Origin: Flavobacterium sp. MDT1-60
GTDB lineage: Bacteria > Bacteroidota > Bacteroidia > Flavobacteriales > Flavobacteriaceae
Assembly: GCF_014844035.1 (NCBI RefSeq)
Contig: NZ_CP062159.1
Coordinates: 2,170,001-2,234,000 of the forward strand
Direction of reading: 5' to 3'
Length of the DNA stretch: 64,000 nt
Shown here: positions 40,007-43,013 of the stretch, in pieces
Layout of the letters: each line of letters starts with the position of its first letter
Numbering within the stretch: position 1 is the stretch's first letter
The notes under the pieces: generated by a model
What the model was told of the DNA's origin: nothing
What the model saw: the letters and a program-made list of their open reading frames with translations, nothing else
Databases searched by the model: none
Translations under genes and position numbers: made by a program

Positions 40007-40906
40007 CTATTTTTTAAATGAGTTGAAAGTGGCTGAAATATTGGAGACGAATTCTTTTGTGTATTGTCCGGTTGGGTCTAAATCGGGATCTAAAATGGTT
40101 ATTTCGAGTCCACTTAATTTCTCACTTTGAAATAGGTAAGAGGTAAGTTCGTTAAATTCAGTGTAAGTTAAACCATCAGGGGTTCGGCTGTCTACACACG
40201 GCATAATTGAATCGTTTAAGACGTCTGCATCGATATGAAGCCAAAAACCGTCCAGATTCTTTGCTGCAATTTCTGATAGAAAAGAATTAATACAATTTTT
40301 AATGCCTTGTTTGCGCAACATTTCAAGACTTAAATAAGTGGCTGTAGAATTCCGAATCTCATTTTCGTATTCCTCATCATATTCGCGATTGCCTACGCAC
40401 CAAAGGTTTTCTTCTTTTATATATGGAGATAAATTTAGAATATCGGTTAATTTTTTATGTCCGTTTCCGGTAACAACAGAAGCTGCCATTCCGCCAACCC
40501 CACCAGTATCAGACAAGGAAATGTCCATGAAATCAGTATGTCCATCAAGATAGAATAAACCATAATTTCCTTTTTGTTTTAACGCAATGGCTGATCCTAA
40601 AAGAATACTGCAATCTCCCCCAATTATAAAAGGAAATTTATTTTGAGTTAGTAAGTTATTGATTAAATAAGCTTGTTCTCTCGCATATTCAACCAGGGAA
40701 TTCGCATTGAGAATTTGTGTTTCGGGATCCTTGATATTTGAATATTTTGGTGGATCAATTCTGATGATGTCTTTATGTGAAATGAATTTATGCAAATTGT
40801 GTTTCCATAACCAGTCTGGTAATTTTTTTACGCCAGGTTGTTTTCCGGGTTGAGGTTCTTTTAAGCCTAGGTTCGACGGAAATTCGACAATGCACAGTTC
40901 TTTCAT
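40007..40906 (-). CDS. Arginase/agmatinase/formiminoglutamase family hydrolase
   Basis: A 299-residue ureohydrolase-family enzyme. The manganese ligands are in FIIGGDCSILLGSAIAL, LFYLDGHTDFMDIS and the pair HIDADVLN (DxD) with PCVDSRTPDGLTYTEF. All six expected ligand positions seem present. Substrate choice (arginine, agmatine, formiminoglutamate, guanidinobutyrate) cannot be read from sequence. The gap to the carbonic anhydrase gene downstream is 113 bp. It lies in tandem with the SymE-like gene upstream (37 bp), perhaps by chance. Confidence 0.9.
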   Translation of the reverse strand: MKELCIVEFPSNLGLKEPQPGKQPGVKKLPDWLWKHNLHKFISHKDIIRIDPPKYSNIKDPETQILNANSLVEYAREQAYLINNLLTQNKFPFIIGGDCSILLGSAIALKQKGNYGLFYLDGHTDFMDISLSDTGGVGGMAASVVTGNGHKKLTDILNLSPYIKEENLWCVGNREYDEEYENEIRNSTATYLSLEMLRKQGIKNCINSFLSEIAAKNLDGFWLHIDADVLNDSIMPCVDSRTPDGLTYTEFNELTSYLFQSEKLSGLEITILDPDLDPTGQYTKEFVSNISATFNSFKK

Positions 40907-40943
40907 GAAATTTTATTTGACTATAAAGTTATTAAAATATGTT

Positions 40944-41138
40944 TCAGTTTTTTTCTTTGTTAATAGTAATTGTCAGCTTGTTTTTCTTTTGTTTGATATT
41001 TACCATTTGACCTTCCTTAAAACCAAGTTTATTAAGCCATTTACCTTGTAGTTTTATTACAGGAATTGTTGTGCATGTATGTGTTCTGGTTTGGTATTTG
41101 GTATGAATTTTTAGTTTTCTTGAATTTTCAATTGTCAT
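40944..41138 (-). CDS. SymE-like toxin family protein (AbrB fold)
   Basis: A 64-residue basic protein of the SymE family, small toxins or RNA-associated proteins with an AbrB-like fold. The start chosen is the ATG at 41138 (MTIENSRKLKIHTKYQTRTH), because the longer frame to 41180 lacks a coding look and runs through the promoter. The conserved end is PVIKLQGKWLNKLGFKEGQM followed by VNIKQKKNKLTITI. In E. coli SymE is held in check by the antisense RNA SymR. Here a divergent XRE regulator sits 88 bases away instead, and three operators lie between them. The first operator covers the symE start codon. Toxicity is not shown. Confidence 0.8.
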   Translation of the reverse strand: MTIENSRKLKIHTKYQTRTHTCTTIPVIKLQGKWLNKLGFKEGQMVNIKQKKNKLTITINKEKN

Positions 41139-41219
41139 ATATTTGTATGACAAATATAAAACAAAAAACAGATTTGTCAATTTTTAATATGACAAAATTG
41201 TCAGCAAATTATATGACAT
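41132..41219. promoter_or_regulatory. Triple operator TTGTCA-N10-TGACA(A/T) between symE and the XRE gene
   Basis: Three 22-bp inverted repeats have identical architecture: O1 41132-41153, O2 41174-41195 and O3 41198-41219, each TTGTCA, ten bases, then TGACAA (TGACAT in O3). O1 overlaps the SymE-family start codon and the -7 element, O2 covers its -33 element, and O3 ends 7 bases before the XRE start codon. Spacing O1-O2 is 42 bp (four helical turns) and O2-O3 is 24 bp. The XRE protein is the likely ligand. Confidence 0.82.
41151..41180 (-). promoter_or_regulatory. Promoter of the SymE-like gene
   Basis: On the minus strand TTG (41178-41180), 19 bases, then TATATTTG (41151-41158) matches the Bacteroidota consensus. 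The -7 element lies 13 bases from the ATG at 41138, leaving almost no leader. Both elements are inside operators O1 and O2. Confidence 0.7.
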
Positions 41220-41226
41220 TTGATTT

Positions 41227-41442
41227 ATGACGAGAGATATATTAAAAAAGAAAATAGGTCAACGAATTATTAAATTACGAGAAGAAAAGGGTTGGAGTCA
41301 GTCAGATTTGGCGAGAGCTTGTCTTAAAGACCGCCAATCTATAGAAAAACTTGAAAACGGAAAAGTTAATCCAACAATATATAGTTTGCTAGAAGTTGCA
41401 AATGCTTTAGAGATTTCACTATCTAAATTGGTTGATTTCTAA
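41227..41442 (+). CDS. XRE-family transcriptional regulator
   Basis: A 71-residue protein that is little more than one HTH_3 domain. The helices are KKKIGQRIIKLREEKGWSQS, DLARACLKDRQSIEKLENGK and the closing VNPTIYSLLEVANALEISLS. It is read divergently from the SymE-like gene and most probably binds the three operators between them, repressing both. Its own start is 7 bases from operator O3, so autorepression is likely. It could act as the antitoxin-like partner. It ends before a shared terminator at 41475-41502. Confidence 0.88.
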   Translation: MTRDILKKKIGQRIIKLREEKGWSQSDLARACLKDRQSIEKLENGKVNPTIYSLLEVANALEISLSKLVDF

Positions 41443-41474
41443 TAGTGGCTTTCCGGAAATATGATTTAATAAAA

Positions 41475-41502
41475 AATCCGACTTGCTTTCACAAATCGGA
41501 TT
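41475..41502. terminator. Terminator, AATCCGACTTGC family, copy 2 (bidirectional)
   Basis: Same 28-nt hairpin as 39183-39210, between the convergent XRE gene and the minus-strand DUF1254 gene. The A-run before it serves the minus strand; the plus strand has only a short T-run. Confidence 0.8.
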
Positions 41503-41522
41503 AATACTATTTAAGTATATTT

Positions 41523-43013
41523 TTAATTTACTTTTATAACTGCTGGTGGCGTCCATTCATTTTTTATAGTTTTTTCCTGTGGTCCATAGCATCTGAAATA
41601 TAAGCAGAAAATACCTTTAGGAGCAGGTAACCAGTTGGCTTTTTTAGTGCCTTTAGGTTCCGAATTTTGTACATACAATGTTAATGAGCCGTCGGTATTA
41701 TATTTTAGATCCTTATTTTTTGTACCCAACGAATAACGTTTTAAAGGATTGGGAGAGAAAAAGTGGTGTTCATCATACAAAGTGAGGGACCAAAAACCAT
41801 CTACCGGGGGCATTTTATCTTTTGCAAAAGTTACGGTATATTGTTTTGTACCGCTCAATCTTGCACCTTGCGAATCAAGATCCTGATAAAAGTATTTTGT
41901 TTCTGCACCAGCGTTTACGAGTATGTTTGATTTTGCAATTGCTGTTCGTGTAAAATAATCTGTTCCAAAGGCAGCGCAGTTATTGGCGGTAGACCAATTA
42001 TCGGCTAGCGGTATTCCCCAGTTGCGAAACTGCAATAATGGATCTATTAATTCCTTGTCAGCTTTAAAGGCTTCTTCTATCATTGCTTTTTTTAGTGCGG
42101 GATCTTTTTTTGCAGCTTCAATTACAGCAAGTATTTGAGCATAACGCGATTCTTCGCCCGGCAAAGGCGGTGCATCTTTTAGCACCATGGGAAGTTCATC
42201 GAAAAATTTATCAGGAAATACCCATTTGGTTTCGCCTGAGTCACCATCTTTTGTAGGCGACCCCAGAGAAGGAAGTTTGCTCCAATCCTGCTTTTTCATC
42301 TTGCCATCAAATTTATCCAATGCATATACATCAATAGCATTAATTATGCCTTGAATTGCTTTTTTGTCTTCAGGAGTATCATCCTGAAATACTCGTGGTA
42401 CAATGAATGCTGTTCCCGTTTTGCTGCGAAACATTTTTGTAATTCCTTTCGGTACATCGCCTTTCCAGTTAGGACCAACAAGTAGGTAGAAACCGGGTTT
42501 GGTTCCATACATTTTACCTAGTTGGGCAAAAGCATCAGTTCTCAGGTCAACTACCTGGTAAACCCAAAATCGGTCTCCAAAATCTGGCACTTGCACTACC
42601 ACAGGAGTTTCATCAAGTGCAGCAATGGCGGCACCATACACTACATCCTGATTTGGGCACGCAACCCAACGTTGCTCGGGTTGTATATAATCGTGCAGCA
42701 TGGCTAAAGTATTAAGCGGAGCAAAAGGCAAAACACCATTCATTAATCCAACTTTTGGCGCCTGTTTAAAAGCGAGGCGGCGATTGTAAATGTTTTCCAT
42801 AGGCCATGCCCAGAAATAGGCATCTTGTGCTACCTGTCTTGCATACGCTTCAGTAATCTTTACGGAGGTATCTGGCCCGGGTGGCAATACTGACTTATTT
42901 GAGGTTGTGCTGTCAAGCTTTGTAGAAGTTGATAAGGTAGTTTCTGTATTTTTGTTTTGATTGCAAGATGCGAGAGCAAAAATGACAATCATTGATATAA
43001 GTCTCTTTTTCAT
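41523..43013 (-). CDS. DUF1254/DUF1214 lipoprotein
   Basis: A 496-residue protein with an N-terminal DUF1254 domain (AYARQVAQDAYFWAWPMENI, LNTLAMLHDYIQPEQRWVAC, PDFGDRFWVYQVVDLRTDAF) and a C-terminal DUF1214 domain (PPVDGFWSLTLYDEHHFFSP, GSLTLYVQNSEPKGTKKANW). The start is the ATG at 43013, giving the lipoprotein signal MKKRLISMIVIFALASCNQN (Cys17). The family is common in environmental bacteria, often as tandem pairs; the function is unknown. A truncated DUF1214 copy sits directly upstream (43052-43331). Confidence 0.88.
   Translation of the reverse strand: MKKRLISMIVIFALASCNQNKNTETTLSTSTKLDSTTSNKSVLPPGPDTSVKITEAYARQVAQDAYFWAWPMENIYNRRLAFKQAPKVGLMNGVLPFAPLNTLAMLHDYIQPEQRWVACPNQDVVYGAAIAALDETPVVVQVPDFGDRFWVYQVVDLRTDAFAQLGKMYGTKPGFYLLVGPNWKGDVPKGITKMFRSKTGTAFIVPRVFQDDTPEDKKAIQGIINAIDVYALDKFDGKMKKQDWSKLPSLGSPTKDGDSGETKWVFPDKFFDELPMVLKDAPPLPGEESRYAQILAVIEAAKKDPALKKAMIEEAFKADKELIDPLLQFRNWGIPLADNWSTANNCAAFGTDYFTRTAIAKSNILVNAGAETKYFYQDLDSQGARLSGTKQYTVTFAKDKMPPVDGFWSLTLYDEHHFFSPNPLKRYSLGTKNKDLKYNTDGSLTLYVQNSEPKGTKKANWLPAPKGIFCLYFRCYGPQEKTIKNEWTPPAVIKVN

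Follow-up and report, generated by a model that had tools for sequence, protein, structure and literature searches.

What holds a symE-like gene in check when it faces a divergent XRE gene across an array of inverted repeats? SymE is the textbook RNA-silenced toxin and was later reported as a DNA-binding protein. In E. coli, symE is controlled by LexA, by the antisense RNA SymR and by Lon, as described in the passages of PMC1891008 that concern it. The locus studied here lies in a stretch of 64,000 nucleotides from Flavobacterium sp. MDT1-60 (contig NZ_CP062159.1, positions 2,170,001 to 2,234,000), hereafter called the window. It resembles E. coli symE/symR in the PF08845 family of its gene and in that control apparently acts on the 5′ end of this gene, and differs from it in that the antisense RNA there is matched here by a divergent XRE gene with three putative operators and no Rfam match at threshold. 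The arrangement recurs in related bacteria, which suggests a protein switch in place of E. coli's antisense RNA.

The symE-like gene (40944–41138, minus strand) encodes 64 residues from an ATG at 41138. With 37.4 bits against PF08845 SymE_toxin (curated cut-off 29) it passes the family cut-off, and it is the only PF08845 match in the host genome. Against the MazE_antitoxin profile the protein scores 18.3 bits, under the cut-off of 24.7, and a search by sequence gave no credible match in the PDB. The XRE gene, a putative repressor gene (41227–41442, plus strand), encodes 71 residues that comprise only a helix-turn-helix (HTH) domain (PF01381 HTH_3, 52.1 bits, cut-off 23). The two genes are divergent and separated by 88 bp (41139–41226). 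The nearest solved structures to a profile of the XRE classes A and B defined below are SinR (2.2e-11), C.AhdI (4.8e-11) and C.BclI (3.7e-10), with CylR2 lower; in PADLOC the best match of the XRE is HTH_VI (6.7e-11), followed by Control_protein (3.5e-9). The XRE belongs to the C-protein/SinR group of small HTH proteins, and shares its short stand-alone HTH with the controller (C) proteins of restriction-modification systems and with SinR/CylR2-type repressors, which are also its closest solved structures. C proteins autoregulate through palindromic operators and usually also activate. Unlike in restriction-modification systems, the partner here is symE, and no restriction gene was recognised near the pair among the two flanking genes by profile or the ORFs from 30 to 52 kb by eye. 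Profile matches assign the flanking genes to the arginase family and to DUF1254/DUF1214.

A sequence-only reading of the window had described three inverted repeats TTGTCA-N10-TGACA(A/T) in the 88-bp gap, spaced by 42 and 24 bp. All three are present as putative operators with start-to-start spacings of 42 and then 24 bp: O1 (41132–41153, TTGTCA-N10-TGACAA) over the symE start region, the central O2 (41174–41195), and O3 (41198–41219, TTGTCA-N10-TGACAT). The sites and spacing stand, with the refinements that O1 runs past the gap, 7 bp into the symE ORF, and that O3 ends in TGACAT. The repeats were also said to cover the –7 and –33 elements of symE, and both elements are found there. The –7 element, TATATTTG (41158–41151, minus strand), is of the Bacteroidota type, and its TTTG is overlapped by the TTG of O1. 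The –33 element, TTGACA (41180–41175, minus strand), is the symE-side half of O2 and gives the combination TTG-N19-TATATTTG. These promoter elements are named after the Bacteroidota –33/–7 consensus. Coverage of the symE start codon holds in that the ATG at 41138 falls within O1, and is qualified by the start itself, whose true position is uncertain because an ATT takes the place of the ATG that several close relatives have at codon 3; one database copy of the protein has 62 residues instead of 64. On the other side, O3 overlaps a putative XRE –7 element, GACATTTG (41215–41222, plus strand), 4 nt upstream of the XRE start codon, whose promoter role is predicted, and the two halves of O2 may serve as –33 elements of both the symE and the XRE promoters. 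The exact operator pattern gives seven oriented hits in the 5.56-Mb genome, five of them from O1–O3, and the reversed-pattern control gives one. Outside the locus the exact pattern is rare genome-wide.

Relatives of the locus were collected with protein and profile searches. By protein search, symE turned up in 13 of 299 family genomes and, among named genomes, at 24 loci, mainly of Chryseobacterium and also of Flavobacterium, Sphingobacterium, Tenacibaculum and others; the profile search found it in 46/398 genus, 39/395 order and 20/395 phylum genomes (the host genome counted in each). A further 20 symE places were chosen by hand, and the loci read are the best matches of the searches, not every weaker place. 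Removing copies that share 100 nt from the domain start left 129 symE places or fragments, of which 107 score at least 40 bits. We classified these 107 by the nearest divergent regulator within 700 bp scoring above 60 bits: 38 have a class A regulator, like the XRE of the window, 10 class B (about 40% identical to it), 28 class C, a third HTH group, and 31 none of these, several of the last group carrying other XRE-like ORFs upstream. Counted among the 38 class-A loci are the window itself and a few whose XRE is broken or distant (for example L042, L052 and L086). At L093–L096, a class-C XRE/symE pair is joined by an extra class-A XRE further upstream, which reads in the same direction as the class-C XRE, so that two regulator types are stacked in a single locus.

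The type of operator follows the class of regulator. The sequence-only reading had proposed looking for the N10 operators beside other symE/xre pairs, and the class-A site is present at 36 of the 38 class-A loci, window included (the misses are L050 and L084), and at 0/10 class-B and 0/28 class-C loci. Conversely, a second site, GTTCG-N6-CGAAC, is present at all 10 class-B loci and at 0/38 class-A and 0/28 class-C loci; its 10/10 is partly by construction because the motif was derived from those same loci, which does not apply to its absence elsewhere. For class C no common operator was found, the best shared palindrome occurring in 13/28 loci. For two XRE classes, the covariation thus amounts to a prediction of where the regulator binds.

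The spacing is conserved as well. Among 34 loci, window included, with a class-A XRE of more than 95 bits within 130 bp, 26 have three sites at 24 and 41 or 42 bp (24 exactly, two with an extra weak overlapping match); the other eight have two sites each, 24 bp apart in five and differently spaced in three. Three or more sites, with up to 3 mismatches of 12, occur in 27/33 real class-A intergenic regions versus 12/9900 Markov-1 resamples, and the half-site letters are near-invariant. The promoter-like elements keep their places relative to the sites: in 21 of the 26 three-site loci (window included) TAnnTTTG falls right on the O1 boundary, 17 or 18 nt past the TGA of O2, against a background in the flanks of 0.0007 per position, and GACATTTG over O3, directly before the XRE start, is kept in 24/26. 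In four of the two-site loci, L023, L030, L044 and L045, the gap is 41–42 bp shorter and the usual place of the symE –7 element is missing by eye; the fifth is L084. Of the 395 order genomes, 20 carry an XRE of at least 70% identity; symE was detected in 18 of them, compared with 39/395 overall (the host genome in both sets). For the two exceptions, L168 and L169, the stretch searched gave no match to symE at E 1e-3. By eye, L169 keeps O3 with the rest degraded, and L168 has all three operators, one with 1 mismatch, preceding other sequence; its array, upstream of the XRE at 621–833, may control another gene. In G830 and G948 an XRE of 51–56% identity was found with no symE hit.

Gene order, operators, their overlap with promoter-like elements, conservation and the covariation of operator with XRE class are all established at the level of sequence. 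Because the array is conserved, the site type tracks the XRE class and the operators interlock with the promoters, the XRE very probably acts as a repressor of symE that also regulates itself, as the sequence-only reading had suggested; covariation, conserved spacing and sites overlapping both promoters all point this way. The locus would then be a self-contained transcriptional gate in which the XRE represses both symE and itself, a reading we consider probable. A dimer of the XRE would bind the three operators, where O1 covers the symE –7 element and start region, O2 the symE –33 element and perhaps also that of the XRE, and O3 the XRE –7 element. From this geometry of promoters and operators, O1 and O2 are expected to block symE and O3 the XRE. 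At high XRE levels both genes would be shut, and a fall in XRE, on some presumed inducing signal, would open symE. SymE itself is predicted to be an AbrB/MazE-related DNA binder which, when abundant, may compact DNA and slow growth and would hence be held low. This role is inferred from E. coli SymE, for which a review (PMC11894785) describes DNA binding that shows no preference for sequence, compaction of the nucleoid and a lack of observed RNase activity.

What happens to symE where the XRE is gone bears on the nature of the pair. The XRE has been lost or is broken at 16 loci, which belong to the window's genus or to named Flavobacterium (L046, L052–L054, L056, L058, L060, L062, L063, L065–L067, L069, L081, L032 and L138; in L046 pieces of it are found by eye on both strands). 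The symE domain is uninterrupted at 15 of the 16, the exception being L138; in L063 a stop lies at the end of the domain. At all 16 the old XRE promoter block is inverted and faces symE, with O2 kept and O3 decayed. An intact class-A XRE elsewhere in the genome was found in 0/15 cases (all but L032), and any match at E<=1e-10 in three. The core of O2 nevertheless scores 0.97 in conservation versus 0.73 for the rest at these loci, a difference inflated by the placement of O2 by best match, and the repressor model alone cannot explain conservation of O2 where no class-A XRE remains. The median pairwise dN/dS of symE, from pairs that are not independent, is 0.25 at 14 XRE-lost or broken loci (54 pairs, dS 0.15–1.5), 0.26 at 11 loci with the XRE (43 pairs) and 0.16 in Chryseobacterium (10 sequences, 29 pairs); in relatives the XRE has medians of 0.10 and 0.11. 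L042 likewise combines an XRE broken at its 5′ end with an open symE. The reverse loss also occurs: next to an XRE that is still open, symE is disrupted or truncated in L039, L043, L044, L045, L084 and L086 (frameshifted in L044 and L045, the domain stopping early in L084).

These losses weigh on the suggestion, made in the sequence-only reading, that the module is possibly toxin-antitoxin-like. In a type II system the XRE would also bind and neutralise SymE, and the operators would provide conditional cooperativity. SymE carries a toxin annotation, antitoxins are often small XRE proteins (also according to the relevant passages of PMC1891008), symE has a neighbouring regulator gene and operators in the promoter region that the two share, as in such systems, and the six loci with a broken symE beside an open XRE show the direction of loss expected of a toxin. 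A type II toxin should not persist without its antitoxin, however, and here 15 of 16 symE domains do, 14 of them yielding the median dN/dS given above, in genomes of which none of 15 has an intact class-A XRE. Moreover, in the SymE tree L018, which has a class-A XRE with class-A operators, falls inside the class-B SymE clade (100/93, 99/86), in a tree of few columns with many open forks and unsettled bootstrap; one SymE lineage thus appears to have switched XRE class. An open symE without the XRE, together with a change of XRE class, is easier to reconcile with transcriptional gating than with a toxin that is neutralised. A type II system is unlikely here, and an addiction role of the pair is doubtful. 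The family label leaves the role unfixed, since a protein flagged SymE_toxin can act as an antitoxin in the case reported in the part of PMC6504116 that concerns it.

SymE could also be a regulator in its own right, binding intergenic sites and repressing the XRE so that two stable states arise as with phage CI/Cro. Divergent genes with three operators are what such a switch would use, and E. coli SymE does bind DNA. The same account of E. coli SymE finds it to lack sequence specificity, though (PMC11894785, in the passages on binding), and an alignment of 17 loci showed by eye no second conserved motif in the class-A spacer besides the operators and promoter-like elements. We therefore give a two-way switch little credence. 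That the repeats act as RNA hairpins, in a leader or antisense element, instead of as DNA operators, is very improbable. The plus strand of 41130–41226 does fold better than its shuffles (z –3.08, 2/200 as good), as an array of palindromes would in any case. Against hairpins, the half-sites are near-invariant and not covarying, the motif differs by XRE class, and O2 and O3 would lie outside the symE mRNA by the promoter positions predicted here. Rfam on 40500–42000 gave six matches at E up to 10, all below the gathering score, and on eight loci the best was DUF805b in L034, with 32.3 bits versus a gathering score of 35.6. That near-threshold match lies at L034:3295–3329, about 110 bp downstream of symE.

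Repression of symE by the XRE remains likely on this balance, and a broader account of the gate can be sketched, which we offer tentatively and rate as somewhat less probable than its opposite. Bacteroidota SymE would be a useful DNA-compacting protein, not an addiction toxin, gated by interchangeable divergent XREs that fall into three or more distinct classes, two having operators of their own; in relatives of the window's genus an inversion would have put the old XRE promoter before symE, the XRE would have been lost, and symE would have become a stand-alone gene under selection. Natural loci that place varied regulator classes, or no recognised class-A XRE, before the same protein allow the purpose of SymE to be asked, and are also suited to studying how a cell swaps its means of silencing a gene.

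Part of the arrangement has precedent. Kawano et al. (2007) reported predicted operons that combine SymE with Cro/cI HTH genes and proposed transcriptional control, in the passages of PMC1891008 on genomic context, so that SymE beside a Cro/cI-type regulator, as found here, was already known in 2007. Those passages also describe SymE as nearly exclusive to proteobacteria, and transcription-factor genes as displaced by other regulators or sRNAs. The sequence-only reading's suggestion that the XRE may have taken over the antisense RNA's part would run in the reverse order. SymE/XRE-HTH pairs in Serratia are listed as possible hybrid type I/II systems in the section of PMC7725324 concerned. The pairs in both papers likewise have SymE adjoining a Cro/cI-type regulator; in those sections, though, they are predicted operons or have the regulator preceding, with no operators given, whereas here the genes lie in Bacteroidota, are divergent across 88 bp instead of in a single operon, and have mapped operators. 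Among the matches listed from the open-licence literature we recognised no description of such an operator array, and the divergent multi-operator form in Bacteroidota, together with the covariation of regulator and operator, looks new.

The surroundings of symE were examined for signs of mobility. In 21 loci, with and without the XRE, an arginase gene (15) and/or a dihydrolipoyl-dehydrogenase-like gene (10) lies near symE, so many copies occupy a common chromosomal site, and a neighbour protein of the locus is 99% identical in Flavobacterium branchiicola (L032). Ten genus genomes for which no class-A-type symE was listed were chosen for comparison (one, G806, has a class-C-associated symE), and 7 of them gave no match at E 1e-60 to the arginase-family gene that adjoins symE in the window (40007–40906); the whole neighbourhood may therefore be gained or lost together. 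The three with arginase show no exact operator in the 700 bp upstream. With 7/10 lacking an arginase match and 3/10 an exact operator, no insertion boundary is defined, and the idea of a clean empty site was set aside. A mobile element was likewise set aside, the symE query having no match at E 1e-3 in 72,556 plasmid and 50,697 phage records, collections from which records very near the host genome may be left out. Five stretches of viral contigs carry a two-site pattern, with a symE hit at E 1e-3 in 0/5; one viral contig, L182, has a weak XRE hit (26% identity) about 2 kb from its array, and three distant SymE relatives (32–40% identity) occur on viral contigs.

Recurrent inversion of the promoter was rejected on five close pairs, in which the inverted blocks share 65–72% identity versus 88–93% for the symE starts; these identities fit an old inversion with exchange of symE. 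Between L048 and L046 the inverted block is 86% identical over 78 nt, and a later or second inversion event is possible there. In some Chryseobacterium a leader of about 80 nt that can form a hairpin precedes symE (L029:2920–3000, L034:2920–3000, L036:2922–3002, L142:1418–1497 and others). The hairpin has a compensatory change in 0/22 pairs, the element has no Rfam match, and weaker copies (28–46 bits; L025:1458, L178, L179) stand, by eye, in front of a different, unknown gene family; with no compensatory change and copies before another family, it was dropped as part of the system. Finally, a repeat-like sequence, GTCATTTCGAC...GGAGAAAT, found at 2636–2656 of the window, also occurs by eye near loci without the XRE, upstream of symE in L032, L054, L056, L065 and L086, and looks like a scattered repeat of the genus.
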